Origin: Nereocystis luetkeana
Taxonomy: Eukaryota > Sar > Phaeophyceae > Laminariales > Laminariaceae
Assembly (NCBI GenBank): GCA_031213475.1
Contig: JARUPZ010000026.1
Coordinates: 6,803,785 to 6,867,784 of the forward strand
DNA length: 64,000 nt
Reading direction: 5' to 3'
A model generated the notes under the pieces. That model was not told the DNA's origin. It saw only the letters and a list, made by a program, of their open reading frames with translations, and ran no database searches. A program made the translations under genes and the position numbers. Shown in pieces: positions 9,868 through 61,359 of the stretch (positions within the stretch are counted from its first letter, which is position 1; every line of letters begins with the position of its first letter).

Positions 9868-9869
9868 TC

Positions 9870-10188: not shown

Positions 10189-10392
10189 CCTGGTATACCT
10201 CGTGGGAGGGTTTCGTGTATGCGCTTTGCCGCCGAGCGCGATTTTCTGGATCCAAATTTCTCACCTGGTATGTGGATAGGCTGTTGCGTAAACACGAGCC
10301 CGACGTTCTTTGTTGTTGTTTTTTGTTATCCGTGGGCCTGCGCCAACTGTATACGTGTCGCGTACTCTGCTGAACCTTTTAACGTAACCCAG

Positions 10393-11744: not shown

Positions 11745-12867
<1,123 letters not shown>

Positions 12868-12875
<8 letters not shown>

Positions 12876-19864: not shown

Positions 19865-22800
19865 CTGTTGGGGGGGGGGCACCGGTGGGCGTGGGTGGGC
19901 GTGGGTGGGTGGGCATGGTTGCCTTAGGCCATTCAATCATTGAGCCCGCATCCCTTTTCGAGAGGGAGCACAGGGGAATAGGGTGAGGGTAGTCGTTGGG
20001 GTTGGGGTGGGGGTGGTTGGGGTGGGAGTTGGACAGGGGGTGGATGGGGTAGGGTGGGGGTGGGGTGGGTGCGTGTTTGGGTGGGGGGTGGGTGCCCGGA
20101 GTTGAATGAAAAAAGGAGAAGAAAAAGAAGACAATCGAAGCGGGGGTGCACAAGAGACTTGATTTTCTGTGGCGGGGGGTGGACTGGAGGCAAGACAGCG
20201 GGAACACACAAGCGCGGCCTGTGTACCACTGCGGCTTGCGAAACACACATCGAGCATTTGATGAACCAATGCGGTCGAGAGCTCAGTATGCTGATGCGCC
20301 GTGCAACACAAGCTCCTAAACAAAAGAAGAAGAAGAAGACGAAGAAGGCAATCCCTTTCGGTTGCATGAACGGCGATGACAGGAGCGAAATGAACTAAAG
20401 GTTACAGACAGGAAATTATGAAGCAATTTACACCAATGAAACGAACGCAATGACAGTTACGGGCACGATACGGAACAGTGGTTACAGAAGGTAACCTGCA
20501 TGTTTGGGGTTCCGAATTACGGTTACAGAAACGAAACAAAACGACGGTTACAGACAAGAAAAGACCGAACGACGGTTACAGACAGGAAAAGACCGAACGA
20601 CGGTTACAGACAAGAAAAGACCGAACGACGGTTACAGAAACGAAAGGAGTATGTTTTGCACCTACGGCAACAGAAAACGACGGTTACAGAAACGAAACGA
20701 AACGAAGCGGAGACAGAAACAAAACGAAAGCAAATAAAATACCCAAAACGTTCTTCTCTGCGCTCACAATGGCAAACATGGGGCGGCGAACGGAAGCCAA
20801 ACCGGTCTCCCGCCAAGAGATGAACCAAGGGCCGACATTGCAGATAACCGAGTTGAGAAACAGGAGGATGGCTACGCTAGTGCCCGTTATCTCCTTCGGC
20901 AGCTCCATCTGAATCGGCCGAAATCAGCAAAAAAGGCGGGGACAGGGGGCGGGGACAGGGGGGTGGGTGGGGATAGGGAGGTTGGCGGGGGGTGTACTCA
21001 TGCCATGCATGGTCGTAGTCGTATGACCATAGACCCTCGCATCGCTACAATGCCGGGACGGAGCATGTCGGGTTTTCACCGACCAGGCAGACATTGCTTG
21101 CACCAAGCTATGCGAAGCGCCGTGAGGTGTCTGGCGAGTCGCATGAAGGGTGGGGGGGGGTGGGGATAAGGATGTTGGCGGGGGGTGTACTCATATCATG
21201 CATGGTCGTAGTCGTATGGCCTTAGACCCTTGCGATCCTACAATGCCGGGACGAGCACCCTTCCTACTCCCAATAGAGACAGACCTACGGAGGACGTTTT
21301 GGCGCTCATTACGTTTTCTCAATATATTACCTAGAAAACTTTTGCTACAGTAGTACTAATAGTATTATCCCCTTCCTGTTTCGCCGCCTGTGGCCACCAT
21401 TTATCTACTAATACGGGCCTCACGGCAACATGAGCTAGATCATACACGAACGGGAATATGTGATCTGTCTGCCTCGAATGATCTAAATCATCGAGTGGGA
21501 ATCGATTATCTGAATGTAATCTGTAGATGATTTGTCTGTCCGAAGCATGCAAATATATTGAGACTGCTGGTTCGTCCCTAAAACGGCAGTACGGTGGTAG
21601 AATACTGTTCACGGGGGACCATATTAAATAGGAACTACGTACGGTACAGACAAAAACCTATAAATTTCGCTATTTTTACCAACAATATATGGTCCTATTT
21701 ACTATGGTCCCCCGTGCTTTCATTACTTTTTTTAAATACCAATATATTTGGTTCTATTTACCATCGCCCCCCGTAGTAATAGCTACTATACCAGGTGAAA
21801 GTAGATCATAAACTCACTCACCTGCAGCAAGGCCATATGCCCGGCCCCCAGCCAGCACTCGGCTACACCTGCAACAAGGCCAATCTCCCCACTATTCAAT
21901 TTCCAAGAAATACATGAATAAACCCACCTGCAGCGAAAAGGCCATGCCCGACCCCAGCCAGCCCTCACCTACACCTGCACGAATAATTTTCCACGTCAAA
22001 TAATATATATATATATACACCTGCAACAAGGCCAAGTCCCCCCGCCCCCCCCCTCGATAATATTGAGTACACCCCCCCCCCACATCATTTCCCAGGTCAA
22101 ATACACTTGCAGCACCAATTCCCAACTCAAATACACAAATTCCGTTCAGCGAGACCAACACACTACACCTGCGACAAGGCCAATCTTACTTAGGGCCCTA
22201 ACCTACAACCCTTTCTTTTAGTGCAGCAGTCCCGTTTAGGGGACGAACCACTCGAATTCTAAGTACCTTCTCCCCAAAACGGGACTGCACTACTAGAGGG
22301 GGACCAACCATAGTAAATAGGACCTACGGTATGCACAAAAACCTAGATATTTCCTTTTTTTACTATTACGGGGGACCATAGTTAATAGGACCTATGGTAT
22401 ACATAAAAACCTACCTGGTATATATTTAACCAGTTTTACTAACAATATGTGGTCCTATTAACTATGATGGCCCCCCGTATTAGCACTATTTGGTCCTATT
22501 TACTATGGTCCCCCGTGATAAAGGGGTTATGGCTCGTCTTGAAAAAAAAATGCCTTCTTCCAAAGAGGGGGGGGGGAGGTACCGTAACCCTTATAGGACC
22601 CCAGTCCCGTTCGGGGACAAACTACTTGTATTTTGAGTGATTTGTCCCCACATATGGGACTGCGGTGCTAAAAGGGTTAAGGGCTGTTTCGAGTCTTAAC
22701 GAGACGTAACGGAGTTTAATGCGACCAAAAGAAAACGCCGTCAGACCGGAAATCCCACAACAAACAGGGGAGCAGTGTAGAGGCCCTGCAGTAGTCGCAT

Positions 22801-24833: not shown

Positions 24834-24878
<45 letters not shown>

Positions 24879-27800: not shown

Positions 27801-30800
27801 TTTTGCTAATCGACGCGGTTCGTGAAGAAAAAAAAACACAGCGTTAGTTTCTGCAGATTTGGTTCTGAAAAAAGGAACGGCGTCATGTTGATGTGCCTGG
27901 TACGCACCTATCGGAGATTGCGCCGCCGCCGTAGGAGCTGGCCATACCCCCGACGCTCACGAAGCCCGCGTTGAGGATGCTGAACAGGGAAGTCTGGGAA
28001 GGGAATGCCCTGTGGTAATACGTCTGTTGCGAGAAAAACAAAACAAAACAAACAAGCAAACAAACAAACAAACAAAAACAAAAAGAGGGTCAAACCAAAA
28101 AAGCGCAAAAAGAAGAGAAAACGAAGCAGGAGAAGAAAAAAGGAGCAAAGGTAACCAAAGATGAAAAAATAAATAGTATTTGAAAACATACCTGTACAAA
28201 AAATTAAAAAAAGACATACATACAACGAAAACAACAAGACGTGTACAAGTACATCATGCTAATTCATTATATACCCATTACAGGGAAAAATAGTAATCAG
28301 GACCAAATTTGCTTGGTAAAAATACTGGAATACATAGATTTTTTTCAAGATTATGAGCCCTCATTGCTATGCCCCCTCTCCGTAGTCGGATGTCGACCGA
28401 TTCTTACAAAAGGTTTACTTAGGATACAGCAGTGTTTCGCCGGTTCGCAAATACAAACCAGTATACCAGGTAGGTTTCTTGTAGCTGCTGTACCTCTTCC
28501 CATACGTGCGTTTCGTGATTCGTTCGGACGAACTGTTAATACGGGGAACCATAGCTAATAGGACCTAGGGTACACACCAACACCTATATAATTCCCTATT
28601 TTTACGAACAATATTTGGTCCTATTTACTACGGCCCCCCGCAATATTAACAACTCCAGATTACGGCCAATCCGCCGTTGGGTCGGAGAGGCCCCTTCTGA
28701 TCCCGATTACCACAATGTAAATAAAAAAGCGGGCAAACTGATACCTGGTATTGAAGAAGAACGAAAAAAACGCAAGAACCATAATTTTTATCTCTAGTAC
28801 CAGATTTAGAGGCGTTCCCCCGCCCCCCGATATTTACCAGGTACGAATATACAAACAAGACCAAAACAGCGTGAAGAACGTAACAGGGGAGTGTACCGGT
28901 TGGGTTTTTGTGCTCTCGTTATGTTGAGCGAACGCGCGATTTCAGCGACGACAGAAAAAGAAGAGGAAACTATAAGATTGACCACATGACGATCCAGCCG
29001 GAAAGAGAACCACAGCTCAGTTCGGTGCTTCCTCCAAAATCCGCAAGTCAGTCGCCTGACAAACACCGCACTCTCGTCGGTTTTTTTTATCGCTCGGACC
29101 CTGTTAGAACCGCAGTCCCGTTGCGGGGACAAACCACTCAAAATGTAAGCAGTTCGTCCCCAAAACAGGACTACTGCAGTCCTAAATGGGTCAGTCAAAC
29201 TACGTTAGGCCCCGAAACAACGGGCGCGCAATCCTTCCCGCGTCGCAACAGATCATCTACAGATAGATCAGATAGATCATATTCCGCCAGACGCGCGCTA
29301 CGACAGAGGCAGCACTGTTCCGCTAAATATTTTCTGAGGAACAGGGCTCCTTAGATTAGAACATATAGCCCCTTTTAGGACTGCAGTCCCGTTTTTGGGA
29401 CAAATCACTTAGAATTAGTGTGGTTTGTCCCTGAATCGGGACTGCAGTACTAAGGGGGTTGCCCCAAATTCGTCGGAACAGTGCAATTCTTTTTTCGAAA
29501 ACTGACTTTTTTGTATGCAGCTGGGGCCACCATGGATGGGCTTATTCATCAACCACAGCACTTTTGATTTTTGGTGGAGTCAGTTTTCGGGTGACACAGC
29601 AGTGACATGCTGTGAAAGTATGGAGCTCCTTGAGGTCAAGCGAGGAGCCTCAGAGAAAAAAAAAAATGGTGCGCCTCTACGTACTGCTGTAGCATGCGTG
29701 ACCAGCAGCTCCTAACCTGCAGATACGATGTATACAGTATTAGTAGAGGTGCCCCCACAATGCGGCCTGAATAAGATGGCATCCCGATATAAGGCGGTCA
29801 AAATCGCCTGGGGCAACGGGGGGAGTGCGCTCATAGCGTGGAACGTGTAAGGCGGCTTCCCCCCACAATGCGGTCTGAGTGAGGCGGTATCCCTATATAA
29901 GGCGGTCAGGATCGCTTGGCGGGACCGGGGAATTGCACCCGTAACGTGCAACGTGTAAGGAGGCTTCCCCCGAATCCTGCGGTCATATTGCTCTCACAGG
30001 CACACCGCCCCCCTCCTTACCGGAGGCCACCCACTGTGTTGGGCAGGAGGGCCTGTGGAGTATATACAGGAGACCCGACACGGAAAACATGTGCTGCCAA
30101 CGGTAGGTAAATCATGCGGATGATGCAGCGGCTTCCCCTGGTCAACACGTACTGCTGTGAGTAGATCATAACGGTTCAGGACTCTCCGTCTGTCCCGAAA
30201 ACATCTACAGATCATGACGCGGAAAAGTAGATGATCCGAAGTCCCGAGCGTGTGTGTACGTGCAGCCTTATTTTTTTGGCACTACCGCAAAACGTATCCC
30301 ACACTATTTTCGAAAGGGCTGCGACCTGCCTGGACGTCACTTCACATGTCGCAGCCAACTACCCTCGGTGTGAATACAAGGAACGCTTGACCTTCATGTG
30401 AATGCCTAAGCGGGCCTCATATCTCTGCGCGGAGTGGCAGCAGCCATCAGTCGGGTGGCGATTCAGCCAACTACTACGGGGGGGCATAGTAAAAAGGACC
30501 TGTGGTACACACAAAACCCTATATATTCACCTATTTTTACCAACAATATTTGATCCTGTTTACTATGGCCTCCCGTGATAGACGACTTCGTCCATCGGCG
30601 AAATACACACACATATTTCCAGCCGCGAGTGCGCAAGTCTTAAGACACGAAAACACGTAAATCTTGCAGCTGATTACCGCAAGCAGCTGCAGTACCTGGC
30701 CAACCAATAACTAATCGGCGACTTCTAGTCAGCCGACTATACTAGTCATGGAGCCTAACGACTAGTCGGCGGCTTATATTAAGCCAACCTACAGCCCTAT

Positions 30801-32920: not shown

Positions 32921-32955
<35 letters not shown>

Positions 32956-35900
32956 AGTAGTAGTAGTAGTAGTAGTAGAAGTAAATGTGGTAGCAGCAGT
33001 ACTGTAGTAGCAGTAGTAGTAGTAGCAGTAGGAGTAGAAGTGGTAGCAGCATCTTCAGCGGCAGCAGGCGGGACCGCCAACGTGGTGTGGGGAATTCATA
33101 GCAACAACGCCAGACAAACGAGACAGATAAAACTATCAAAATTATATCGGCGAGGATAGGCACGTTTGTCGACGTCAGTACCGCCAGCCGCCGCTATTTT
33201 AACCAATAATGAATACCTGGTACCTCACATTTATACGTAGCGCTACCGCAAAATTGGAAAATACCGCAGCTTTCGCCTGCCCGATATACTACTACCAAAA
33301 CATTCATTAAGAGATACACGGTTTCAGGTAGTTGATTGCCTTCACGTTGGCGGCTGCCGCTATACATGCTTCTTTCATAAAAAAGAGAAAACGACATCAC
33401 AGCAGCAGTCCCTCCCATGTCCGAACGAACAATCATACCCAGTTGAGTGGGATTTCTGTAACGAATTGATTTTTTTTATAAAAAAAATAAAAATGTTCTT
33501 GTTGCTAAATCTCGTAGGTACGGTGTATACGTATGGACAATACACACACACCAAGCTTGCGAACATATATTTTGAGGGGGGGAAAAAAAATCACAGCTTT
33601 GCTTTTGTCTTTTCCTTTCCAAAATATGCCTTCCCTGTCGGTCGCGGAAAAAAGCGAGCGTGTTTTTGTACGTACGTACTGCCGCAAATGTCGGGGGGGG
33701 GAAATCTCGGGGGGTTGGAGACTCCAACACTATGATTGTTGTGGTACACGAACGCAGTTGGTTGACAAGACTCCATCCACGTCGACGGCTTTCGTTATGG
33801 TTCCATTCATTGGAAGAGAAGACGACACCACGCCACACCACAGCAGCAGCAGCAGCAGCAGTCCCTCCCATGTCCGAACGAAAAACAAAATCACTGGGTT
33901 GGGATTTATGTAGCAGGTATATGCTATTAATATATGTATGCCCGGTACCAGGGACCAGGTACAGTATATGCACACGAGGAATACCAGGTACACAGTATCA
34001 ATATTGATCCCATGTTTTTCATCATCTCTTTTTTTTTTCGGTGTTGATATAAGAGATACACCCCTGGGTCTGCGGAAGCACTATTAATAGTGTGGTATCT
34101 ATTGTGGGTATCGCGAATCACTTTTTTCTTGGTGTCCAAAAACCTTTGAAAAAAAGAAAGAAAAATCTCGCCCTGTTGAAAAAAGAAAAGTCCAATCGAA
34201 AAAAAAGGAGTGGTCGGACAGATCATCTACAGATCATCTACAGATCATTCCTACAGTCCCTGCTTTAAATCTCTCGAGGCAGACCTATTCCCGATTTTGT
34301 ACGAATCTACCTCATGTCGGGTGGGGACCCGTATATAATCTGCGTGATCTACAGATCTACACTATTAATCAGCACATGTTTCCTGGATTGGATCTGTAAC
34401 CACGCAGATCCTTTACAACTCCTCACAACGGCATGGATGAGGAACTACTGTAGATGATCTGCTTTTAAGATCATGATCTTCATGGGGTGTGGAACCTTGT
34501 GCCCGAAATGTGGATAACAGTTGAATTAATAGTGGGCTTCAACAAACTCCTCGTACCACCTAAAAACATCAGCAGATCACCTACAGATCAGCTACAGATC
34601 ATCGACTGCCACTTGATGATATATATCATCCAAGGCAGATAGATCATATATTCCCGACCTTGTGTTAAGATCTACGAGCTCAAGTTGCCGGGTTGGGCCC
34701 GGGGACCCGGACAATCCGCATGATCTATTGACGAAGCAATTGTGTTTTGGGATGGATCTGCTCGGTCAGACAGATCCTGCACAATCTCTCACGGCTGCGC
34801 GTAAGGAACTAGATGATCTAGGTCATGATCTATCTATAGATCATCTGTCTGATCTATCTGACGGAGGTGTGAAAACTTCCCACTTTTGATCGGGGCACAC
34901 AAAAAAAACGAGAGCTTGAGCTCTATTTTTTCACCAATCCGCCCGAGGATGAGAAGAAAAAAACAAGTAAAAGAACACGACATCCCACGACGTACACAGA
35001 GAGCCTGTAGCAATTAACTGACCCCGACACCCCACGAGGTACACATCCGGCAGCAATCAACTGACCCCGTTAGAACAGAACAGAACAAATCAACGAACAA
35101 TCTGCCGAGTACCAGGTACCGATCGGTACATGCTACGTACGCCCTACAGCATACTTCCAAGGGGGCATTCCTACCGACGAGCAACAACAAAACGTCACAA
35201 AATCGTGACGAAAAAAAAACAAGACATGCTCGCGAATCACCCGAGAAATCATACGTACAGCGAAACGCTTTTCGGTCGAGAAATTTGATGTTACGCTTCC
35301 GTGACGAAAAATATACTGGATGTATATATATACATCGAAGTATATATATATTCAACTTGACATGAAGCCAATTTATAAATATCGCCAATCCTACGAGTTT
35401 TGTTTGCTTTACGTTTGTTAGGCATGGCCTAAAATGCCCCATGTACCTGGTCTACACGAATGCGTTTTTTTTTTTTCCTTATACCTCTGGAGAGAGTTGG
35501 GGAGATCGAAAAATAGAAATCTAAAGCTATCATAAATACGGGGGACCACAGCAAGTAGGACCTATGGTACACACAATGAAACCTACCAGGTATATAATTA
35601 CCAGGTATCATTTTTCTAATATTTGGTCCTATATACTATGGCCCCCATTAATAGTAATAGTAATATTTCGTACCAGGTACCAGGTATATATATATATTGT
35701 GAATTCGGGGAAACGAAATCATAAAAGGCGTACCTGGTATTTGCCTTCGAGGGTCAGGTCTAGCCACCGAAAAAAAAACATGAATCGTGATGAAAAAAAA
35801 AAACATGACCATTTTCGAGAATCGCGATATTAGTCCACACCCACAAGTTACAAAAAATCAGGGCAAAAATTGATGTCACGATTTTGTGACCAAAAAAAAT

Positions 35901-38900: not shown

Positions 38901-41900
38901 AAAGGGACTTGACGGCACGGGCCGAAACTAGAAAGTCATCGATCTCTTTGCTCACCAGAAGGCACGAGAAGCTCTGGCAGGTGCCATGCGCGGCGGCGGC
39001 GAGACTCCAAACCAGAATAGCGCCGGTATGCAGCAGCCTGGTGTAGGGTAAACAGGTGAGCGATCGCGAGGCATGTCGCCGACGGCGGCGGGGGAGGAGG
39101 GGGGGGCGTACTCGATCTCATGCATGACCGTAGTCGTATGACCATAGACCCTCTACTCCCTACAATGCCGGGACGGAGCACGTCGGGTTTTCACCGAACA
39201 GGCAAACATTGCTTGCACCAAGCGCGAAGCGCCGAACGGTGTCGGGCAGGTCGCGTGAAGGGAGAGCCGCATCCTACTACGAACCGTTTTTGAGGCAGAT
39301 TCTCTTGCATATGGGCGGGCGGGGGGGGGGGGGCGTACTCATGTGTCGCTTGCCTTATCCCCTTTCTGTTTCGCCGGGAGAGTCGGGGGGGGGGGGGGGG
39401 GGGGGGGTTATTGCCCTGCATGGCCGTAGTCGTATGACCATAGACCCTCACATCCGTACAATCCCGGGACGGAGCACGTCGGGTGGGGGTGGTTGGGTTT
39501 CACAAACGATAGTCACACTTGTATGGATGCAGCAGTGGAGGCGAGGGGGGCGGGTGTACTCGATAGGAGATATGTACTCGATCCCATGCATGGCCGTACG
39601 TAGACCCTCGCATCCTTACAATGCCGGGACGGAGCATGTCGGGTTTTCACCGACCAGGCAGACATTGCTGGCACCAAGCGCAGTTGTATAGAGGAAGCAG
39701 TGGAGGTGCGGGGGGGGGGTATAATCATTGGCACACTTGTGTGGAAGAATTATTGAGCTCGCGCTTGCTTGGCGTCGGAAAAAACGGCAAAAAAGGTAGT
39801 GGGGCATACGGCCGAGAGAGGGGGGGGGGGGGTGTGATTTATTGCAGTCACACGTGTATGCAGGGGTCTGGTGTCGAGCATTGCGGTACAGGATAAGGAG
39901 GCACATCGCCGACGGAGGAAAGAACGGGGGGGGGGGGGGGGGCAAAAAACGGACAATATAGCCAAAAATGATGTCTCATACTCTGTAACCGGCTCGACAA
40001 ATAAAATACCGGTATGCCATGGAAGTAGTACACCAACACCACCAGCAACAGCACTGGCAGAAACAGCACCACCAAAACCACAACGGAAACCCTCCCCCCG
40101 CCCACTCCTGCCACCAACCACCACCACCACCGGCCACATAAATCCCGAGAAAAACACCCCATAGGCGCCTACCCCCCCCCCCCCCCCCCCCTACTCTGCC
40201 GCCTCCTCACCTTCTGTCCAGCGTGTCTGTCAACCGCCCGGCGAACAGCGTTGCCACCGCGAAAATGATCGTGAAGCCAACCCCGGACAGGATCGCGTAC
40301 TGGGAGGTGTCGATACAGGCTCCGTCCTACGGTTCGGGTGTAAACACGGGTCGGGGCGGATCGTCGCATGAGATGTCAAGATAAGAAAGAGCTTCGAAAA
40401 ACGATGGGTTTTTTTTTAATTTTGAATTTTTTGAATTTTTGAATTTTTAGTTTTTTTTTTTTTTTCACCGATACTTATTATTTTTCAGTTCAAAACTTGG
40501 AAGGACTTCTTGACGGTTCACCAAACCACCTTCTGGACAAGCCGTGGTGGTCAAAGGTATCCGTCCTTCTCCCCCCCCCCCCCTATTATATGTAGGTTGG
40601 GTTCGCGTCGATTGGCAACGAGACTGTAAAATATGCCGCTCACTACTCGTACGTGCGTGACAACCAGGGTACCGTTTTTTTGTTTTTTTTGGCGGTCGCC
40701 CACAGCTGGTTGTCGAGCTAGATAATTTGTGCGAGGTAAAGAACCTTCACTCCGCACAAGTGGGAATGATCGTATCACGTACTGGTAGTGTTCGAGGTAG
40801 GGCACCCAAGAGGCAGTTACATAGTACTCCCATTGCTGTCTCTGGAAGTGGCTACACCGGAAATTAAACTAACTCATTGAAGCCGTCATCTATATGCAAG
40901 TCCGCCTCACAAGCGGTTCTTAGTACTGTAGGATGCAGCTCACCCTTCATGCGACTCGCCGGGCACCTCACGGCGCTTCGCGCTTGGTGCAAGCGATGTC
41001 TGCTTGGTCGGTGAAAACCCGACATGCTCTGTCCCGGCATTGTACGGATGCAAGGGTCTATGGTCATACGACTACGGCCATCCATGAGATCGAGTGAATC
41101 TTCTATCAAGTACACCCCCCCCCCCCGGGATGCGCGGGTCCATCTATGGTCATACGACTACGGCCATGCATGAGATCGAGTGCATCTCTCCGATCGAGTA
41201 CACCCCCCCCCCCCCCCCCGGTGCACGCCTCTCTGCTTTCTATTAATAGTCGTAACACAGATCCGGGGTAAAAAAACAGGATTTCTTTTCCCTCCTCTCC
41301 CCACTACGGTTTTTGCCTTGGCAGGCGTTTTTGTCGCGGGAAAGACTAGACAGCGTCAAAACTCATTGCACACACCACTCTATATACCCCTAAAAGCAAG
41401 GGACGTTCTAACCTGATTTTGGTGTATAAATGGTCACTATATTTCGGGACAGAGTGGCACGTGGGAGGAACCCATATCGACCCACACTTCTTAATATCTG
41501 GCATTCACATCCAAGAAAAAATATTTCTGGTGGTGAAACATCATCATATGGCTTACTGCTGTACTACGGGGGGCCATAGTTAACAGGACCAAATCTTGTC
41601 AGTAAAAATGGTTAAACACATACCTGGTAGTTTTTTATGTATACCATAGGTCCTATCAACTACGGTCCCCCGTAACAGTGTACGAGTATATACGTACCGT
41701 GTGATTGCGTCGTTTCACCATCAACACATACTGGCACACAAAACATAGCGGGTGATTGCTTGAAAGAGAACTTCATCCGATTACTTTTATTTTTTATTTT
41801 TTATACTTGTTTTTTACTATCACTTTCACTTTCCAGCTTATCCCCTTTAGAACCGCGGTCCCGTTTGGGGACAAACTAATTGAAATTTGAGTGGGTAGCC

Positions 41901-44900
41901 CCCCGAACCGGGACTGCGGTTCTTGAAGGGTTAAGACATGTGCCAATGGAAACGCGAAGTCAAAATTTCTTCTTCCTACAACATTGCTTTCAAAGAACGG
42001 GGGAAAATGCGAAAATATCCCCGGTACCGCCGCTGTGGGAAAAAAAGGGAAAAATGGGTTTTGTTCTTCTTTTTCTAACGGCTGCAGGCGGCACAATTTC
42101 TTTTTTTTCTCGTTGCAACTTGTCAACACGCTGATAAAAATCATCTCATGCGACGATAGACGCTCGATCCCGACATGGACTCAGCCCACGGCCAACCCGC
42201 TTCGTGTCGGGCATGGTCAACGAGTATAGATGACGGGCTCGAATAAATCGGGTGGATCCATGGTCTAGGGGGCAAGAGCTTGCCGGCGGCGTCCTACGGT
42301 ATCCTCCCAAACCTGAAAAAAAACCCTACAGTTTGCCATTCAAGACGGATCGAGAATTTTTGTCATCTGTTTCGTGCATACCAGCGGCCAATTGCTTTTT
42401 TACCCTACGCCTGGCCAGCGCCCGCCACATCTCACCGGCCATTGTGTGAACACGGTGACCCCAGGGTGGGTCGGAGCCCCTAACGAGCGCACTCCGTTCA
42501 GAATTCATGACGCAGTCGTCGGTTTTGTCGATCGAAGTCTGCTGGGGACTCGGAATCCCCCCGCTTCGAACCAAAAACATCCGCCTGAGTTTTTCTGAAG
42601 CCGATCTTGTTGCAACATCGGCCCCAGAATTGTTTTTTTCGGGCTTTTCCAAAAGTTGAGAATTTTGTTTTTTACTAACCGTGCCCATAGAAAGCGTGTT
42701 CTATTTTTTTTTTGGCGGGTATCTTTGAAATTCAAACCATTTGTTGATACTTCGCTTTCCCATTGGCGTAGGTCTAACTCGCATGAGGGCTTTTTGCCCT
42801 CAGCCATCTTTTGGACAAGCTGTGGTCACAAGTGTCGTCCCTTCTCCCCCCCGGCACGTGCCTTCTTTTGGTCTTGCATAGGGTTCAGCATTCCCGCTGC
42901 TCGTCGATTTTCATCGAATGTATAGCTAACTCACGCTCTCGCGCTTTCCGCTAATCAAAATTTATGCAAGAAAAAATCCCTACGACTATGCACTCGGATA
43001 GAATCGAACCCACCAAATCGATTTTGGTAGGCACTACTTCGAAGTATGTACATATTATACGTGAAAACATATCAGGTCCGTAGGTACGTACGTAGCGGGT
43101 ATTTTTCGTGGAGGCTTCAGCATCAAGAGGTGAATATAGAGACCGCCTCACAACGACTCAAAACGTCTCACGAGCAAACGCCACCAACAACAAAAAATCA
43201 CGCAGCAGCTCAACACCAACCACCGACCCGGGCTTTACCCCCTGTTGCCCAACCCTAGCCCGACCGCGACACTCATTTATCCTGACCCCCACTCGGGGGG
43301 GGGGGCAACACTGCAGCGAAACGCGTCGGCGATAGAGAAGGCGTACGGCGTCTCACCACCCTCTTGACTGCTGCAAACAACACACGGCTCGGACGGATCA
43401 TCTACAGATCATCTACAGATCGTCTACAGATCATACACATATTGTCTACAGATCATCTACAGAACACCCGCAGATTCCACATATCGTCTACAGATGATCT
43501 ACATATGATCTACAGATGATCTACAGATCATCGATTTTTTTCCCACTAGATCTACTGTACATCGTGTGCAATCTAGCTCGTGCTGCCGAGTGGGACCCGT
43601 ATAATCCGCATGATCTACTAACTAGCACATGTTTCCCGGGTTGGATCTGTAACTAGAGTATGTAGATCCTTCACAACCTCTAACAACGGCAGGCGAGGAA
43701 CTAGATAATCTGTAGATAGATCAGATAGATCATGATCTGTCCGATATGTTGTTTACACTACTCCACACGAAATCCCAACCAGTTTGTGCCAAAAAACGCG
43801 CGGTACATACAGCTTCTACATGTGTGGGATAGTATAATACGTTCATGGTGGGGTAAAAATACGTTCATGCAAAAAATCGCGAAGCAACTCGAAAAACCAA
43901 CTTTCAAGTTTTTTTTTCTTTTCCCATCGCCCCAGCTGAATTATTTCATTTCAGAGTTATCCGTGGGCCCAGCCAGAAACCACTCCTGGATTATCCCACA
44001 GTTTCATGGCCTCGGGGAAGAACAGATCAGTTTTCCGAGGCTCAAATCAATTAAATCCACTCCAACGCATCCTTTTCTAAACTTCTTCCCTTTGGGTCTG
44101 GCCCAAAGCTCAGCGAAAAAACCACGTCCAGAATATTCCCACTTCCCCCAACAGCGAATCGCTTCAGACCTTCACATCCTGCCCCCCCCCAATTAACCCG
44201 ACGCTGTCATCTATATGCAAGAAAGTCGGCCTCGCAAGAGGTTCTTAGTAGAAGGATGCAGCTCACCCTTCATGTGACTCGCCGAGTACCTCACGGCGCT
44301 TCGCGCTTGGTGCTACTTCGCGCTTGGTGCTAGCGATGCCTGCCTGGTCGGTGAAAACCCGACGTGCTCCGTCTCGGGATCGTAGGGATGCGAGGGTCTA
44401 CGGTCATACGACTACGGCCATGCATGATAATGAGTACCCCCCCCCCCCCCCCACCCCCCCCCCCCCCCCCCCCCCCTCTTGTATGCCGCACCTTTAGATT
44501 GTAAAACCCCGTGTTGAAAGCGTTTCGGCAAGTCAGGCATTCTTCCTCGCTCAAGCTCGAAGTCTGCTCGGGGGACAGCATACACGGAACGATGTTGTTT
44601 CAAGAAAAAACGCGGCAAAATAAAAACAAGTCAGTCGGCTCGGCGTGAATGCTGAACCAATAACTAAAACGCATTTATATAGATGTATCCTTCGACGTAC
44701 AGACCGCACAAGGGAATTGACCGCATCACGCATTGTTCCAAGGTAAGGCGCCCAAGAGGCAGTTACATAGTATACTTCGAAGTATATGTTATATATCACG
44801 GGGTATTGCGTTGCATTGCATTGCATGCAAGACGATAAATAATTTACCAAGTTACCAGGTACCTGGTAGGCCTTATGACGCGCAGTATTATATACGACTA

Positions 44901-45951
44901 CCTGGTATAGTACACGACGAGGAACCACACCACTCCGTCCCTACATACACGGATCATTTACATATTTTTTTCTCATCCCATTCATTATCTTCGCACATCT
45001 TCTTCTCTCTCTCCTTCCAACTCGTAACTCAGATCCGGGGTCACATAGCAGGCTCTTCTCCCCCCTTCCCGCTACGGTACGTGCCTTCATTTTTTATCGC
45101 GAGAAAATTTCAGCATTTTCTTCCCTCGTCGACTCGCATCGAATTGTGCCTACCCACGCTGCAAGGCGCTCTCAACAATTGAATCCTTTTTTTTATTTTT
45201 GCAAATAAAGTCAAAGTCCGACCCACCTGGGGCTCGAACCCAGGACTCAAACAAGTAGAATTCGAGGTTAACCACTTGAACCACCGGGGCGACCGGCTAC
45301 TATGGTCCCATATACACGATACCAGGTAGTCGTTATTCCAAATGTTCCGAAATATGTATCACCCGTGTGATAAGCTAACACACACCCTCGGACTATTTTC
45401 CACGCTGAATTTTATCTCTCGACACCGGGGAGGGTGGAAAAAAACGCCGAGCGATGTATATATCATGTGTCTACGCATGGAAATATCTCCACGAGATCTT
45501 TTCCCCAACATTTATCACCCGTGTGATAAGCTAACACACCCCCCCGGGCTATTTTCCACGCTGAACTTCATCTCTCGAAACCGGGGAGGGTGGAAGCACA
45601 CGCCGAGCGATGTATGTATGTATGTATGTATGTATGTATGTATGTATGTATGTATGTATGTATGTATGTATGTATGTGTGTATGTATGTGTCTACGCATG
45701 GAAATATCTCTATGGGGTCTTTTTTCCAACGCCGACAATTTCGTCGTGTGTGTGTGCCCCTTCAGCCCCCCCCCGAATACATATGCAAGTCCGCCTCAAA
45801 AGCTGTTCTTAGTAGGATGCAGCTCACCCTTCATGCGACTCGCCAGACACCTCACGGCGCTTCGCGCTTGGTCCAAGCAATGTCTGCCTGGTCAATGAAA
45901 ACACGACATGCTCCGTCCCGGCATTGTAGGGATGCGAGGGTCTGTCACACC

Positions 45952-45983
<32 letters not shown>

Positions 45984-48900
45984 GTTTCGGGGAAAATCGG
46001 TTCGGAAATTCGTCCCCAGGGCGTGTGTTGTCTTCATCACCCTAGTGTGATAAGTGTGATACAGAATGTTGTGAGTCATCTTTGAGTTTCAGCTTTTAGC
46101 TCTTGGGAGCTCTTACACCCAACGACCTTCTGGGCCAAAAGCCGTGGTCACTGGTGTCCTCCCCTATCCCCCCCGGATGCATGCCTTCACATAGATACAC
46201 CGCAAACAACGTAACGTACATACGGTTCGGCATTCCCGCTGCTCGTCTGAATTTTCATCCAAGTGTAATGGGCCGCCCCGTGTTCACGTCGCGCTGCACC
46301 GGTGCCTTTAAAAAATAGTGCCAACACGGGATAGCTAGCTGGTAACGTGGGAGAGCGAAAACGACGAGCCAGTGTCCACAAGTTGCATCGCACTGGAGGC
46401 AGCAGGACTGGCTATTCTGATAGCAGGCGGGGGGTCTATTCCCCGCTTCATCCCGCTGCGACTAAGCTTCGTGGACAAAATGACTTGCAACGATTAAAAG
46501 AGGGATCGGAACTCTTGCCGCGATAACACCCCGGCGGACAGTAAAAGCGTCACAATGAAACACCAGGAAAAGTCCCAGGAGCAGTGCAGCAGCAGCAATG
46601 ATGCCTCCATGCACAGTAGCGCCGTTATCGTATGCGCCAGCCACTAATGCCGGCCCTACAGCGGCAACCGGCACACTGGTTGATCCAATCAGCGCCAGGC
46701 TATTTCACAGGCACTCGTGTACATAGAGGAATACTGCTGATTTTACGGATCGATATTCGGTTTACATATTGGATTGGCATCTACGCTATTTCTGCTGTCG
46801 TCTCCCCGAATTCGGAAAATAAGTAATTACTGCTCTAATTTAAGTACGATTTTATTTAATCACTCTTATTGTCGGAAGGCAAGCATAATAATAATATAGC
46901 GGGCAAGTGGCACTGTATACTCAAACAGCACTACAGACCACTATTACGGGGGAACATAGTAAATAGGACCAAATATTGCTAGTAAAAATAGGAAAATATA
47001 TACCTGGTAGGTTTTTGTGTGTACCGTAGGTCCTATTTACTATGCCCCCCCGTAATTACTGCATAGAAAAGGGTCAAATTAGAAATGAGCCCCCCAAGAC
47101 TTTACTGCAGGGCTGCCGTATCGTTGTGGGGACAAAACACCTCACACCTCGTGCAGGTGATGATCTATCTGATCTGTCTACCGTAGGTCATCAATCAATA
47201 GTTCCTCTCGCCTACCATCGTGGGGTACAGCTGATGATCTATCTGAGCTGGCTACAGTAGGTCATCTAGTTCCTCTCGCCTACAATCGTGGGGTACACGT
47301 GATGATTTATCTGATCTGTCTGCAGTAGATCATCTATTACGGGGGACCACAGTAAATAGGGTCAATTATCGTTGGTAAAAATAGCAAAATATAAAGGTTT
47401 AGGTATGTTCCTCTCGCCTACCATCGCGGGGAGCTGTGCAGGATCTGTGCATATTAAAGATCCAACGCAGGAAAAAACGTCCTAGATAGATCATGCAGAC
47501 TACACGGGTCCCACCCGGTAACATGAGCTATTAACAGATCAATCACGCAAGCTCGGGGAAATATCAGCCTTGAAGATTTTTAGTGCTGCAGTCCCGTTCT
47601 GGGGACGAACTACTTAGACTTTGAGTGGATTGTCCCCAAGACGGGACTGCGTTTCTAAAGGGGATAAAATATCCACGGACATCATGAACTATGGGAATCG
47701 TCTATCCGATCTGTACTATTACTAGGTATGAAACACTTGGAATTAGGCTGAGAATTAGGATTGGGAACAGCAGCGCAGTGGTACAGGGAGGGCGTCAGCA
47801 GGGGTCGACCGACGAGTAGGCTGAGCTTCGTTTTGGCATGCTTTCTGGTACCAGAAGCCAGTGATGTCTTCGGAGAGGTCGGCCCGCGTGGAGCACGATT
47901 CTTCGAGCGAAGTTCAAATGCTGCGACGCGAGTTCAAGCTGGCGTTGGAGCATAGGCGGGCATCGATGGCGTATGCCATGAGAAGCATGATGGCCGAGTT
48001 CATGAGGAGCAACGGTCGATCGGAGCCAGGGGGCGCTGAAGGCAGCGTTGCTGAATGAGAGAGTGCATCGTATACCTGTGGACTTTATTCAGGTTGCGCC
48101 AAATCAGCTGGCGTGAGGACGACGACGACAACATCAACACCACGACCACGACATCCACAACAACAGAAACAGCAAACAACGAACAACAACTCAAGGTTCC
48201 TTCTTATCGGAGGGCGTTTTTTCCATAATTTCCAAAGTTTGGAAATAATTGGAGATATGCATCAATATACGGAGGCGTTCTGTCACTATTCGTGAAATTC
48301 TCCAGAACCCAAAATATCAAGTTCGTTAATATTCGAATATTTGGAAAAAAAAAAAAACGGGAAAATATGGACGATTGAAAAATTGCGCGAAAAAAATGCC
48401 GAAAATTTGGGAAAAAAGCTCTCCGATAAGAATTGGGTTGACATATATATGATACTGTCATTTCGTATCAACCCTTTTCTTTTTACTTCAAGAACCGCAG
48501 TCCCGTTTTGGGGACAAACTACTTCAAATTTGAGTGAATTGTCCCCAAAACGTCTGCAGTTCTAAAAGGGATAATAGTACCCTATCCTACGTACGAGCAC
48601 GCATCTGAAGGCCCTACCATACGTACGTATTTGAAGAACTAAAAAAGACACCTCACCTGTTGTCGTAAAAGTGACAAATATCGCAAATTTCCTCGAAAGT
48701 CATACCATATTTGCGAGCTGTTTTTCAACATAAATAGTATCGTACCAGGTACGTACTGCTGTATGATACGTAACCCTCCTCGCCGAAAGGGCATCGGCTG
48801 TGAAAAGTGACAAAAGATCGAAAAGATCCTCGAAACTCATGCCACAAAAAGTAGTTGCAAGCGATTTTTTTTCAATAGTATCGTGCTCCTGTACGAGTAC

Positions 48901-51900: not shown

Positions 51901-54118
51901 ATATTGTGTACACCGAACAGACTACAAACGGCAAATAACAAATAACCGTTGACTCGATGAGTTGCTTGCTGTCGACCCTTGGACAGTTTTATATCCACCG
52001 GCCGCGGGTACGGGGATAGGGGTCTGTGTAGGAGGGGGGGGGGGGGGGACACAAATAATAAAAAAATCGCGTATTGCACTACTTGCCGCCGCCGCCGCCG
52101 CCGCCGCCACCGCCGCTGCTGCTGAAACTTTGTAACTGCGCTTATCACCACATGTCGTTCCCACTTTAAGCGGTTTATGTGAGTTTGTTCATACCTTATT
52201 TCTCAACAATATGTACAAATACGAAACGACCGCGTGTTTGCGTGTACGTTCATGTTTTCAAAACAGAATACTCTCATTGATATGATGTGAGTTTTCTTTT
52301 TTTTCTTAACCTCCGGCGGATTGATAAAAATAAAGCTTAGGCTCAGCACGCTTCCTTCCACATTCTCGTGTCGTGTGTGAATTCAACCTATAGCTAGTAC
52401 AACAGTGGGGGGGGGGGGGGGGGATAAGGGACGACATTTGTCACCACGGCTTGTCCAGAAAGGCCGCTGCTAAAAAATGAAACTAATATATGCGAGTTCG
52501 AGTTGAGCTGCTGGAAAGTAAACGTGAAGCGGAAAAAAACAAAAACACAACTATTACATAGTAAACAGAACCAAATATGAGTAGTAAAAATATGAAAATA
52601 CATGCCTGGTAGGTTTTTGTGTGTACCGTAGGTCCCAGTAACTATTGCCCCCCGTAATACTGCTGTACAGTACCTGGTATATCATACCCTGCGGAGGGGG
52701 GGGGGGGGGGGGGGGGGCTTCAGGGGTTTGAACCCCGGTAAAAACATCCTTCCGCCATCGCTGAAAGCGCGAGAGCAAAACTCGGGCAAGAACGAAAAAA
52801 TCAAACCTCGATAAAACAAGTCGATGAGCAGTGGAATGAACTGAACGAAACGGGTCAACCCCACCCGCCACCAAAACCCAGGTACGCTGAATACACCATT
52901 TGCAGTACTATTGTTGTACACCTACGGCAGATGCACAGGAGACCTTCTACATAAGAAAGTGAGCACTGATAAATTCAGGGTGGTGTCAATAGGAACTTAA
53001 GGAATTCGCGAACCGTCACACTCTATTTATGGTCATTCTTATCGGAGGGCTTTTCCCCCAAACGTTCGACATTTTTTTCGCGCAATTTTTCAATCTTCCA
53101 TATTCTCCTGTTTTTTTTTCCTCCAAATATTGGAATGTTAACGAACTTGATATTTTTGGTTCGGAAGAATTTCACGAATAGTGACAGAACGCCTCCGTAT
53201 ATGGATACATATCTCCCATTATTTCCAAACTTTGGAAATTATGCAAAAAACGCTCTCCGATAAGAATGAACCTTAGTTCACTAAAAATCTTTTTTGAAGG
53301 GACGACGCCGGGCCACGCAGGACGGTGGAAACCTCAATTTTCCAGCGGTATGCTGCTGCCATCGTATCACACCGCCTCTCCAGCTCTCACGCTCCCTACT
53401 TTGCGGCAGCCATGGCACGACAACAGTCGCACATCGAGCTCTTCCTCGGTGGCGGCCACGGGCGGTTCTTACGTGTGTGCGTGTGTAGGATGTTTCCTGC
53501 CCTGTAGCCGTGGAAAAGGAAACGAATGTTCTGAAAAAGATCGGTCCAACAAATTGGATGCTGCGCAGGGGGGGCGGGACGATAAAAACCACGCACACTG
53601 GTTGTGTGCACCTCGGAACCGCGCAGCTGCGGTACACACTGCTATGAGAGCAGCGGTACAGCAACGGCAGTACAACAGCAGCGAGCGGTACATCATGCAC
53701 CCGCGCTTGAAGCTCTGGCCTTCGTGACAGCCACCGTGTTTTTCGTCTGTTGTGTCGTGACCACATTTCTACGACCAATTTAAAATGAAAGTAACATCGT
53801 GTAACCTCAAAATGTCATCATGTCACCGGATACAGAGGAACGCCTCCTCACCGATGATGACGATGTTCCCGCTTTTTTAACTTGCGAAACTCCCCGGGAT
53901 TTCAAGCCAACCGCATCCCGAAGAGAAACCTGAACCTTGTAATCTCCAGGCAGGGCGTACAATAAGCTGGTCTACACATTGGACTGCTGCCATGCTAATA
54001 TTGTTGAGAGAGAAATCGCTTTCTATACGTACGTAGAGCACCGGCGAGATGACGGGCCCGAAAAAACGAAAAAACGAAAAACAAAACGGATGCACGAATG
54101 CCACTGGAGTTATGATTC

Positions 54119-54154
<36 letters not shown>

Positions 54155-57100
54155 CCATCCCATTCATTATCTTCGCACATCTTCTTCTCTCTCTCCTTCC
54201 AACTCGTAACTCAGATCCGGGGTCACATAGCAGGCTCTTCTCCCCCCTTCCCGCTACGGTACGTGCCTTCATTTTTATCGCGAGAAGATTTCAGCCTTTT
54301 CTTCCCTCGTCGACTCGCATCGAATTGTGCCTACCCACGCTGCAAGGCGCTCTCAACAATTGAATCCTTTTTATTTTTATTTTTGCAAATAAAGTCAAAG
54401 TCCGACCCTCCTAGGGCTCGAACCCAGGACTCAAACAAGTAGAATTCGAGGTTAACCACTTGAACCACCGGGGCGACCGACATACATACGTATGGCACAT
54501 ATTGATAGCATAGATGGACTATTAATACCAGGTACCAGGTACTGCTGTAGTTACACACACATCATGCCGGCTGCCGTTCCGACTCCCTGTCTCCTGCGTA
54601 CGTACGTAACCATTTGCTTCCCCTCCGTCCGTGCCCAGGAGTGCCTAAGCTCTTTCCATCTCCACCGCCGTATGTATGACGCAAGCGCATGCATACTGTT
54701 TGTTAATACTCTTACGGGGGACCATATTAAATAGGACCTACGGTACACAGAAAAACCAATATATTTCGCTGATTTTATCAACAATATTCGGTCCTATTTA
54801 CTATGGCCCCCCGTAATATATAACGAGGGACCATAGTAAATCCCTGGTAGGACCTACGGTACACGCAAAATCCCTATATTTCCCTGTTTTTGCTAACAAT
54901 TTGTGATCCGATTTACTAACGTCCCCGTATGAGGGCTGGGCACTGGCACAGCAGTATGTACTCTACTGTTTGGGTCGGCCGGTATATTCGCCAGCAGTCC
55001 AAATCTTACGTGCGTCCAAGAAACACGCCATACTACACTACTGCTGTAGTTGGGAAACCCACCAAACGCGTTTCGGAGAAAGGGAGACGAGAGGAAGAGC
55101 GTCACATCATCGCCACACTTTCGCATGCATTTGCTCGATTTGTTCTTATAAAATTGTACCAGGTACCTGGTACATTTTTATTGTTTTGTTGTTGTTCCCA
55201 CAATAACTCTTACACCAAGGAGTCCGTGGTCACACCAAAGGTTCTGTACGTACAGCAGTATGTACAAAAAATGTTCGACGCCAGCTGTGAGGCTACTTCT
55301 TATGCAGTCGGAAACTAGGATTGAAAAAGCCGGTTTCCGATCGGTTATTTTTTCGACTGGATTGCGAATAGCTACCCCTTCTTATCGTCCGTCGGATCGA
55401 ATATACAGTTTTTGTGTTTTTTCTGCGAGACCAGGAGACGCTTGATGCAAGCGAGAGAGTGTAGCCTGACCACTGCTGTAGCAACGAGAAAAATGGGTAG
55501 GGTAGACGGAAGTCGGTTCCAAACTGCTTCCCCGTAGTGCTCGTGGGGTAAGAGAGGTCTTCATCCTCCAGCACCTGCGCCCAACCACACATACATGCTG
55601 ATGTCTCGCTTCTTCCTCGAGCAGCGTGTGAGCTTCGCACGCGGGGCGTTCTCCTCCATCTCGTCCTCGAGGCCATCAAGACGCTGGGTTTCTTCGACAG
55701 TCGCCAAAGCTACAGCCAGCGCAGCAGTTGGCAAAAAGTCATACTGGTAGTCGATACCGCACACTGCTTCGATCGGGTGCTGTCACGTGCTGCTGACGGA
55801 CATAGATGAGGGTATATCACGCTGACTCGAGCAGCAACAGAAGTGGCAGCAGCCAAGCCAGCGTCGCCGCTCTTGTGGTGTGGGGTTGCGTCGTATGTCG
55901 TGTTGATGTGTGGGTGTGTGATACTCGTACGGGTATGCGGCTGGACTTTCTAACATTTCCGATGCACGAATCCGACTGACGAGTTGGATCGGAAATCTCA
56001 GTTTTTCGACTGTCTGGTCCAGTTGGAAATCATACTCGTAATCGTTTTTTTTTAATTGAAAAGGCGCTTTTTCAACTGCATAAATTTGCCTTTTCTTGTC
56101 TCCAATCGGAAACCGGCTTTTTCAATCCTAGTTTCCGACTGCATAAGAAGTGGCCTTCGAGTACGACCGTTCGAAGCATTATGTACAATATGTATATTTT
56201 TTCTGCGTCCGACCGCACAGCACCCCCGGCCAACGCAGTTTTGGGCCTCGACTTAACCCTCACGGCAGTACTGCAGTCCCGTTTTGGGGACAAAATACAC
56301 TAATTTCAAGTAGTTTGTCGCCAAAACGGGAGTGCGGTCCTTGACATAAACGAGCATATTCACGCCTCCTCCTACGACGCCTCCTTCAGGCCCCCCTACA
56401 GTAAGGAAGACCGATTGGCCGAGCATGGCCACTATTTTCGCTGCAATCCAGTCAAACTGTTTGATTTGACCTGTGAGCAGTACCATCGCCACCAACTGAG
56501 TCAGGCAGTGCCCAAGCACTGACACATACTCTTACCCCAGGGTGGAAAAGAAACAGCTCGAAAATACGCTAAAGTATATACGTAAAAAAAAGAATCGTTT
56601 CGTCTTCATATAGGAAACTAATCGGTTCTTATATTTTCGGACATAGTGGATTTTCGCGGTGCATGTTGTTGGGACGAGCGGGCAAAGGCCTGCCTGGCTC
56701 CGGGAACAGAGGGTAAACGCCAGCCCAGAGGAAAGGATTTCGACCGAACGCCACGAAACCCCTTATTGAGGAGCTCGGGAGACCGGGGGTAGCCGGTAGC
56801 CAGACAGCTTCGACCCCCAAGTGGATTGCGCCGGTGGATTACTACTGCCAGTACATGCTGTGCCAGTGCGCAGCCCTAATCGTAGATGCATACTCGTGCA
56901 AGTACTGCTGGTGCCGGTACTGCTGTTTCTCCATCTCCAACACATAAACGTTACCAGAGTATGCGAAATAAATCAGTGATCGCACCCTCCAGGCCACGAG
57001 GGCGCTAAACGTTGGGGACTATTTCGTGTATGTACCGGGTACAAAATACTGCTGCAGTACACCAGTAGTAATTGAACAAGCTACCCTAGGCCATAAAGAC

Positions 57101-59630: not shown

Positions 59631-60421
59631 GAACGTGAAAAAAACGATAAAAAAAACCGAAACACTTGATTATTGTATCAGATACACGCTCGTATTGGAA
59701 AAAAAAGCGTGACGGTTCGTACATATGATAACTGTATTATTACTGAGCTATAAATACGTGGTGCTCTCTGACCTGGTATAGTACTCACCTCGTACCAGGT
59801 ACTAAACTATTATAGGCACCAGCTATATACCTCTTGGCTACCTGGTATTGTTCGTGCTGTACGTACCAGCGACTACAGCAGTATACGTGCCGTACTCGCG
59901 TGTACTCGATGTCGACCGGTAGCAAGCGCGGTTTAACGTGAAGAACACACACACTCACCAATCGTATACTGGTACCCTGTAACTCGAGAGCTTGAGGGAG
60001 CACAACCGCGGCTGCAGTACGAGTACGTATTCTTCGATACTGCTGTGCCTGGAACGTGGCAGGTCATGCATGCTTCTTGTGACATACCGGGTACTATATC
60101 ACACTCTCTTCGAACGTAAAGGACGGTTTTGATTTAATATTAATATTCTAGGCGACCTTATTTTTACGGACGGGTGAAACGAGCTACTGCTGCTGTATTT
60201 TTACTGTTGTACTAGTCAAACACGCATGAAAACACGTACGTGTAGCTCGCCAGAAATTCGGAGCTGATTTTCTCTCGACAATTGGAGAGGTGCAAACAAA
60301 CAGCTCCCTCGGCTTCGAGACACTCGGCTTCGAACTTGGTCCCGCGGGGATTATTGTTTAATAGTACGTATTAATATTGTGTTTTGTTGTACTGTTACGC
60401 CCTCTAAAAAAAAGTATATAT

Positions 60422-60660: not shown

Positions 60661-61359
60661 AAGGGGTTTTACCGCCGCGCCTTGGTACCCATACCGAACA
60701 AACATACGCGTATCATGATACCACTCGTTTTATATTGTACCCATGATCCATGGTGCGGTTGCTGTTGTACCAGGTAGTTCGCATCAAACTGATATCGTAA
60801 GACAGACGGGTGTCAACCCTGCGCCATGTTTTTCCCGGGTACTCACGGGTGTTACAGCTTGCCAATAGCCATCACGGGCGTGCTTCATACAGTATGCACA
60901 TACCCACCGGATATTTTGGGCCCCGACCACACGGGTACCCGCTATTTCGCTCGGGAAACCCCGGGGATGATAATTTATCATCCCTCGAGCAGCTTGTCGC
61001 ACGACATTCCAGGAAACCCTTTCCAAAAGGAGTGAAATACATGGATATCTCGCATGTACATCCCAAAACAACACGAGATATCCCCACACCCCCACTACGT
61101 ACGTAGTTTCAAAGGTGTACAGCAGCAATGAAGCAGCCTATCTCATCAAGTATTTACATAAGTGGTACAAATCTGTCCCGGAGTATAAGCGTCGTTTTGT
61201 TTTGATATTAATATACAAATATTCCTTATAATCAGGGACATGATAGTTGCTGGACCAGGCGCCAAGTTCGAACGTGCCGCTAACAGGGACGTGATTAAGG
61301 GGATGCTATCTTGCCATCCCCGGGGTCTCCAGGGTAAAACATCGGGTATCCGGGACCCC

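Follow-up and report, generated by a model that had tools for sequence, protein, structure and literature searches.

TA-flanked CCWGG motifs in Nereocystis luetkeana as probable excision scars of a cut-and-paste transposon

Distribution of TACCWGGTA in the window and the genome

The window analyzed here, a 64-kb stretch of Nereocystis luetkeana DNA (C26:6803785-6867784, contig JARUPZ010000026.1), carries many copies of the palindromic motif TACCWGGTA, in which CCAGG or CCTGG stands between two TA dinucleotides. These copies are referred to as scars, after the explanation favored below, i.e., excision of a TA-targeting transposon. Several of them lie within MITE-A, a miniature inverted-repeat transposable element (MITE) of ~110 bp with ends TTACGGGGGACC, which is mostly TA-flanked and comprises at least two subfamilies (21 aligned copies in the window; e.g., 9867-9986).

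An exact pattern search located TACCWGGTA at 41 places in the window, in agreement with the preliminary description of this DNA, which had claimed about 40 in 64 kb where chance would give about one. Dinucleotide shuffling of the window (200 runs) gave a mean of 0.37 and a maximum of 2. Among the 151 CCWGG sites of the window, 41 have TA on both sides, and other words of five bases between two TAs are far behind (GTAAA, 15; GGACC, 14, the latter being a MITE-A word). The scars and the scar-bearing MITE-A copies are given below. Exact scars were taken from the pattern search, with no strand assigned (.) and with the middle W as the letter; the ends of MITE-A copies are approximate and come from a repeat comparison and the alignment of 33 copies.

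1546..1554 (.), scar (A) within a dispersed repeat; empty copies elsewhere have TG replacing TA
3142..3150 (.), scar (A) within an 11-bp tandem array, GATGATCTGTA; clean 7-bp insertion between units
5424..5432 (.), scar (A)
9545..9553 (.), scar (A)
10187..10195 (.), scar (T)
11268..11276 (.), scar (T)
22361..22483 (+), MITE-A copy with one scar
22412..22420 (.), scar (T), MITE-A hot spot
28464..28472 (.), scar (A)
28742..28750 (.), scar (T)
28835..28843 (.), scar (A)
33214..33222 (.), scar (T)
33946..33961 (.), probable eroded double scar, TACCAGGGACCAGGTA
33982..33990 (.), scar (A)
35110..35118 (.), scar (A)
35537..35654 (+), MITE-A copy with two scars
35584..35592 (.), scar (A), MITE-A hot spot
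35599..35607 (.), scar (A), the second one in MITE-A copy 35537..35654
35671..35686 (.), double scar A,A with common TA (35671-35679 and 35678-35686)
35731..35739 (.), scar (T)
36005..36013 (.), scar (A)
37274..37282 (.), scar (A)
37288..37296 (.), scar (T), 14 bp from scar 37274..37282
37471..37479 (.), scar (A)
41557..41679 (-), MITE-A copy with one scar
41621..41629 (.), scar (T on +; A in MITE orientation), MITE-A hot spot
44853..44868 (.), double scar A,T with common TA (44853-44861 and 44860-44868)
44899..44907 (.), scar (T)
45320..45328 (.), scar (A)
46940..47056 (-), MITE-A copy with one scar
47001..47009 (.), scar (T on +; A in MITE orientation), MITE-A hot spot
48743..48751 (.), scar (A)
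52556..52663 (-), MITE-A copy with eroded scar
52603..52611 (.), eroded scar, MITE-A hot spot, single TA substitution
52671..52679 (.), scar (T)
54526..54541 (.), double scar A,A with common TA (54526-54534 and 54533-54541)
54814..54926 (+), MITE-A copy with eroded scar at a non-hot-spot TA
54841..54850 (.), eroded scar CCCTGG, TA damaged; possibly 6-bp
55157..55172 (.), double scar A,T with common TA (55157-55165 and 55164-55172)
59793..59801 (.), scar (A)
59839..59847 (.), scar (T)
60768..60776 (.), scar (A)
61457..61473 (.), scar (A) and adjoining 6-bp scar TACCAGGGTA at 61464-61473
61669..61677 (.), scar (A)
61936..61944 (.), scar (T)
62626..62634 (.), scar (A)

The five full sites listed in the preliminary description (22412, 35584, 35599, 41621, and 47001) are each an exact TACCWGGTA. 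At the place matching 61457..61473, a related repeat copy (61531-61620) has CGGTACCATTAGCC, without the 7 bp.

In the whole genome (465,085,209 bases in 1,987 contigs), TACCWGGTA occurs 182,395 times, against 1,744 for the reversed pattern used as a control, i.e., a ~105-fold excess and one scar per 2.55 kb; the genome-wide count proposed earlier as a check is thus far over expectation. The density is 0.64/kb in the window and 0.39/kb on average in the genome. Twenty stretches of 10 kb, comprising 18 from 16 contigs chosen regardless of the motif and two flanking the window, contain 72 scars in 200 kb with a range of 0-9 each, which places the window toward the scar-rich end. The excess of TACCWGGTA is a genuine and very strong genome-wide feature, bigger than first claimed.

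For the statistics below, eight loci picked by pattern, some of them overlapping (L001-L008), were left out of the sample counts and of the target, MITE-A, size-class, and decay statistics. Two loci without exact scars, L010 (10% G+C) and L037 (a large palindrome), were left out of the flank, target, size-class, decay, and MITE-A-end statistics, L010 also out of the 338-kb search for CCWGG-ended elements, and L041 out of the left/right flank correlation and the count of TAs touching CCWGG. Sites near another CCWGG were removed from the target statistics, which left 105 in the flank profile and 106 in the matrix and the correlation.

Insertion into repeats and preference for the target TA

The clearest evidence for insertion comes from MITE-A. 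Of the 39 copies found in the window and the sampled loci, 33 were aligned, copies of less than ~85 bases being excluded. CCWGG-type inserts are present in eight of them (nine inserts at four TA positions). As the extra bases are absent from the other 25, gain is the simpler direction and is favored over loss, as had been proposed. One hot spot, AAAACC-TA-TATATTT, is filled in six of the insert-bearing copies, and its inserts are found in both subfamilies, with A and with T. The inserted unit is a clean TA plus CCWGG of 7 bp, and TA is duplicated at insertion. A clean 7-bp gain is also seen in the 11-bp tandem array (3142) and in the dispersed repeat (1546), whose empty copies have TG. The two eroded cases claimed in MITE-A are real: that at 52603 has one substitution in a TA, and that at 54841 reads CCCTGG with a damaged TA and is possibly a 6-bp scar. 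The copies earlier said to show the unfilled TA are only partly so; 9870 has TA, but 1148 has TG, and 36973 is a tandem pair in which one copy has TA and the other TG.

When the insert was deleted in silico and the sample was searched, an ungapped empty copy was retrieved for 13 of 132 scars, several of these matches being weak and those of MITE-A and 1546 strong. The same search with control words gave 1/34, 10/114, 6/69, and 3/21, mostly as poor matches, so that the strong evidence is the alignment and not the search alone. The search used a low-complexity filter; the tandem-array case at 3142 is absent from it and was seen in the repeat comparison. The repeated 7-bp unit stops at its TAs, and the flanking base preference fades past ~9 bp. 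The unit is not a MITE by the usual definition, which comprises terminal inverted repeats and internal sequence.

With the insert removed, the isolated sites show a two-fold symmetric preference centered on TA. The preferred bases are A/T at -7, A at -6, A at -3, T at -2, and a purine at -1, where T is very rare, and G is scarce at -5. The resulting consensus is weak, about W A W n A T R-TA-Y A T n W T W. The preferences of the left and right flanks are correlated with r 0.79 (36 cells), whereas 400 random sets of TAs gave a mean of 0.00 and a maximum of 0.49. The control motifs TACWGTA, TACSGTA, TACTGCTGTA/TACAGCAGTA, and TAWTA have biases of their own, and none has the flank pattern of the scars. 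A matrix built from the 82 sites without MITE-A words nearby gave a held-out mean percentile of 0.80 in 5-fold cross-validation, with 45% of sites in the top tenth. This matrix places the MITE-A hot TA at the 99.9 and 99.8 percentiles of all TAs and ranks it as the best-scored TA in both subfamily consensuses, which were written by eye and in which TAs close to the ends were unscored.

TAs flanking scars have a mean matrix percentile of 0.90, a value that is partly circular because one flank is the original target. These high scores fit the abundance of tandem scar pairs, which number 15,917 in the genome (control, 2). In 6,378 pairs (40%), A and T are mixed, so that many are not the product of plain slippage.

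Size classes of the insert and the proposed excision

Inserts longer than five bases point to the origin of the unit. In the 314-kb sample, CCAGGG stands nine times between TAs and CCTGGG not once (0.83 expected for each). The 4-bp class also leans toward A, with 26 CCAG and 16 CCTG (expected 9.4 and 12.8, respectively). In the genome, TACCWGGGTA occurs 13,000 times against 771 for its control, and 93 of the first 100 listed carry A, although seven or eight of these belong to one 528-bp tandem array. MITE-A-type sites number 288 (reversed control, 27), and the first 100 of them comprise 68 TACCAGGGTA against three TACCTGGGTA, and five TACCAGGGGTA against no TACCTGGGGTA. The 6-nt inserts are ~7% as many as the exact 5-nt ones, both in the sample (9 and 132) and in the genome (13,000 and 182,395). 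Slippage at G as the source of the 6-bp class is ruled out by this asymmetry, since slippage would extend A and T scars equally. Because the extension is almost confined to the A strand, the insert appears to be the tip of a longer end rather than a closed 5-bp palindrome, and the end of the element would be 5'-CCAGGG, probably CCAGGGG.

A separate observation concerns the tandem array just mentioned, at G000:C1:1305185-1308362. It holds seven 6-bp scars TACCAGGGTA at an exact spacing of 528 bp and another 1,040 bp earlier; it is a tandem repeat with a scar in every unit.

We consider it likely that TACCWGGTA is the excision scar of a TA-targeting cut-and-paste transposon, resembling that of Sleeping Beauty (TA-CWG-TA) except that the stagger would be 5 nt. 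Each scar would record one visit by such an element, putatively bounded by inverted repeats TACCAGGG...CCCTGGTA, that enters at a TA whose symmetric surroundings are weakly preferred, duplicates the TA, and later leaves. At exit, a strand would be cut about five nucleotides within the ends beginning 5'-CCAGGG(G), leaving a break with single-stranded CCAGG tips on either side, which could pair at four of five positions around a central A:A mismatch. Sealing and mismatch repair would then yield CCAGG or CCTGG between the TAs, i.e., TACCAGGTA or TACCTGGTA, and cuts occasionally one or two bases deeper would yield CCAGGG and CCAGGGG. Filling of each end separately would predict the same words, so that it and tip pairing are inseparable here. 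A few long-active copies could accumulate many more scars than copies, because each cut-and-paste move leaves one behind. The preliminary description had likewise compared the motif to Tc1/mariner excision scars, a comparison supported by the TA duplication, the TA-centered symmetric target, the prediction of the hot spot, the CCAGG/CCAGGG series, and the re-use of scar TAs. The sequence itself shows the insertion, its dependence on TA, the target preference, the size series, the decay, and the numbers, whereas the donor with its superfamily, cut chemistry, stagger, tip pairing, and repair is at most inferred.

The same size classes bear on the idea that the 7-bp unit is itself mobile. It would then be a palindromic insertion sequence of minimal size that an enzyme copies into TA sites without any larger element, comparable to the short mobile palindromes of organelle genomes. 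The unit is palindromic and strongly preferred over neighboring words, and a larger donor was not found in the searched sequence, all of which would suit this idea. However, the 6-bp class adds G almost only on the A strand, as expected for the tip of a longer end, and we are aware of no enzyme able to mobilize 5 bp. We regard this origin as very unlikely.

The scars also decay. One-substitution variants are in excess by 94 beside the 132 exact sites of the sample (56 transitions and 38 transversions), which corresponds to a mean divergence of roughly 8% per site. I.e., the scars are read as events of mixed age that decay without visible constraint. This neutral-looking decay disagrees with a selected sequence motif, such as a protein binding site or a replication or chromatin mark spread by selection, even though a palindromic, dense, and mostly exact word is what such a motif would look like. 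Clean 7-bp gains in MITEs and in a tandem array, many of them at one repeat position, and tandem pairs with a common TA and mixed A and T disagree with it as well, and we regard selection as extremely improbable.

Search for the donor element and comparison with known systems

Several results weigh against the excision proposed above. The 7-bp class is even (two CCAGGGG and two CCTGGGG in the sample), both CCTGGGG lying in one repeat context, and the 3-bp step (59 CCA and 13 CCT) is unusable because MITE-A itself contains TACCATA. Same-letter and mixed tandem pairs stand at 60:40 rather than 50:50. The hot spot of MITE-A is filled at 1,367 genome places by one exact 22-base pattern, the first 100 of which hold 33 T and ~67 A (hand count), again not 50:50, and MITE-A words lie near 24 of 106 isolated scars. 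The scar length of 5 nt is outside the ~2-4 nt of Tc1/mariner-type footprints, and footprints of Tc1/mariner and pogo elements are given as 0-4 nt in passages of PMC7913693 and PMC9976928. Finally, neither the ~290-340 kb searched nor the genome matches listed revealed a donor with CCAGGG ends.

The letter counts at the hot spot, together with the scars near MITE-A, imply that some filled copies may descend from a scarred parent, and the 60:40 split and the A excess are compatible with some descent by copying and some bias in repair. In its full form, such descent would mean that a few scarred MITEs or other repeats multiplied and that slippage made the tandem pairs, 60% of which are indeed same-letter. 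Nevertheless, the left flanks of 130 sampled scars comprise 123 distinct 8-mers, the commonest occurring four times, hot-spot inserts with A and T are present in both MITE-A subfamilies, and 40% of tandem pairs have mixed letters. The sample leans toward scars situated for the most part in unique sequence of unrelated origin. Descent as the main source of the scars is accordingly quite improbable.

The autonomous TA element with CCWGG-type ends, whose search had been suggested earlier, did not appear in the sequence covered. Among inverted-repeat pairs that start with TACCWGG in the first 288 kb, none was conspicuous; four pairs had 13/20 matches, against one in the reversed-arm background (649 pairs), whose higher score was 16. 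In 338 kb, there was no CCWGG-ended TA element except for pairs formed by scars or half-scars. Genome TACCAGGGG ends showed no recurrent paired end among the first 100 of 1,750 and 100 of 420, and the matches to a putative intact end included repeated sequences, but no inward-facing pair was among those listed. One candidate end, TACCAGGGGTGCTATGACGC, was rejected as it adjoins a reading frame in which a YMDD reverse-transcriptase motif was recognized by eye and has no inverted partner on a 500-base piece. MITE-A was also rejected as a donor; its ends, TA followed by TTACGGGGG (TA before 20 of 22 sampled ends), predict another scar.

As for transposases, DDE_3 had no match in the genome (its control was positive in 3 of 14 genomes) and Transposase_1 had none either, with its control equally silent. 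DDE_1 (pogo-like) gave 28 matches, of which 13, at 12 loci, were inspected. Clear TA-flanked inverted repeats were seen at two loci, both with CAGT ends, and no end seen at the inspected matches begins CCWGG; L037 is a large palindrome. The two well-preserved pogo-like elements, L031:2253-4860 (ends CAGTGGGGGGCCC) and L040:910-2883 (ends CAGTACCGGCCCGC), are bounded by near-perfect inverted repeats and flanked by duplicated TAs. They were rejected as donors because CAGT ends predict TACWGTA and not CCWGG. In the sample, TACWGTA occurs 108 times against 28.9 expected (3.7x), and the control TACSGTA 68 times against 28.2 (2.4x). Both elements lie at a TA touching CCAGG, while just 2.4% of TAs touch CCWGG; this may reflect a shared target taste, two cases being too few for more. 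For the L040 protein, the nearest cluster of relatives represents 350 member sequences.

The missing donor is the main gap of the excision explanation; the donor may be rare, lost, or something else. A low number of donor copies is no contradiction, since cut-and-paste transposition keeps the copy number while each move leaves a scar. Programmed or trans-driven DNA elimination, in which a host-used transposase removes CCAGGG-ended segments in development and the assembly represents the processed genome, would explain why no donor was seen in the searched part of the assembly, and also the single dominant junction word. On the other hand, TA elimination in ciliates leaves a single TA with no added bases, and the decay of the scars shows that they pass through the germ line, an outcome not expected of plain somatic removal. 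We regard elimination as very unlikely. It is likewise improbable, if slightly less so, that a brown-algal lineage runs or ran a 5-nt-stagger system that has lost nearly all of its CCAGGG-ended elements through very thorough removal, for which a host-controlled transposase acting in development may be responsible, while ~180,000 exact scars remain; if true, the genome would be a datable excision record without a resident element.

Some features were noted in passing. A second TA-bounded micro-motif, TACTGCTGTA/TACAGCAGTA, occurs at 31 places in ~314 kb against ~0.45 expected from a dinucleotide model (e.g., window 3050-3059). Its flanks are varied, an empty copy was found for 1 of 34, and it could be a second scar type. 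Positions 11747-12871 of the window are a 1.1-kb array of the tetranucleotide ACAG, in which several frames are open. Ten reading frames of the window gave three weak matches under the cut-offs in Pfam and no gene, and a 17-base MITE-A word had no match in viral_contigs. The EsV-1-7 domain (PF19114) has 1,713 first-look candidates in the genome, often several per open frame, and all 150 that were scored passed the cut-off; according to a passage of PMC12477816, this domain has proliferated in brown algae and is otherwise mostly known from giant viruses. On this abundance, the genome was taken as that of a brown alga.

Among known elements, the Mariner-Tc1 superfamily targets TA, and Stowaway elements are MITEs of the TA-targeting kind. 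In the brown alga Ectocarpus, TcMar-2_Ec32 and TcMar-N1_Ec32 are described as Mariner-Tc1 families with thousands of copies, most of them non-autonomous (sections of PMC12477816). Their likeness to the putative donor is that of TA elements in a brown alga, and a word search of the main text of that paper returned neither "footprint" nor "excision". Stowaway MITEs of grasses leave small excision footprints, as the element proposed here would; the parts of PMC1925063 concerned treat presence and absence in phylogeny and do not describe a uniform genome-wide scar. Pogo-like elements (Passer; DDE_1) also target TA, and the present genome has the 28 DDE_1 matches and two well-preserved elements described above, but these have CAGT ends, and Passer footprints are reported as 0-4 bp (PMC9976928, in part). 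By title and abstract opening, a literature search, with most subscription journals outside its scope, gave no account of a TACCWGGTA scar or of brown-algal excision scars.

With one footprint type per 2.55 kb, transposon history, target choice, and repair could be read from exits alone, and cut-and-paste elements would seem able to leave many more small mutations than one would judge from their copy number. The ~180,000 candidate events could serve to measure repair, decay rate, and target preference, and scars differing between strains would serve as genetic markers.

The scars behave like a Tc1/mariner footprint, yet they are not filed as one, because their length is beyond the published range and no donor or transposase was identified. 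The closest likeness is to Sleeping Beauty and Tc1, which share TA insertion with duplication and a palindromic footprint with a central W (passages of PMC4378557, PMC7827188, and PMC7913693). In the same sources, the footprint is the tip of the element's end, as the size classes suggest here, and relatives prefer an AT-rich palindromic target, as the scars do. Their footprints were obtained experimentally, whereas ~180,000 are read here from the sequence of one genome without a donor. In Sleeping Beauty, the cut lies three nucleotides within the ends, and the footprints are identical to the 3' overhangs (PMC7827188, in part), which gives TACAGTA or TACTGTA (PMC4378557, in part). The corresponding distance here would be five nucleotides, and, if this stagger is confirmed, the known range of cut geometry among TA elements would be widened.

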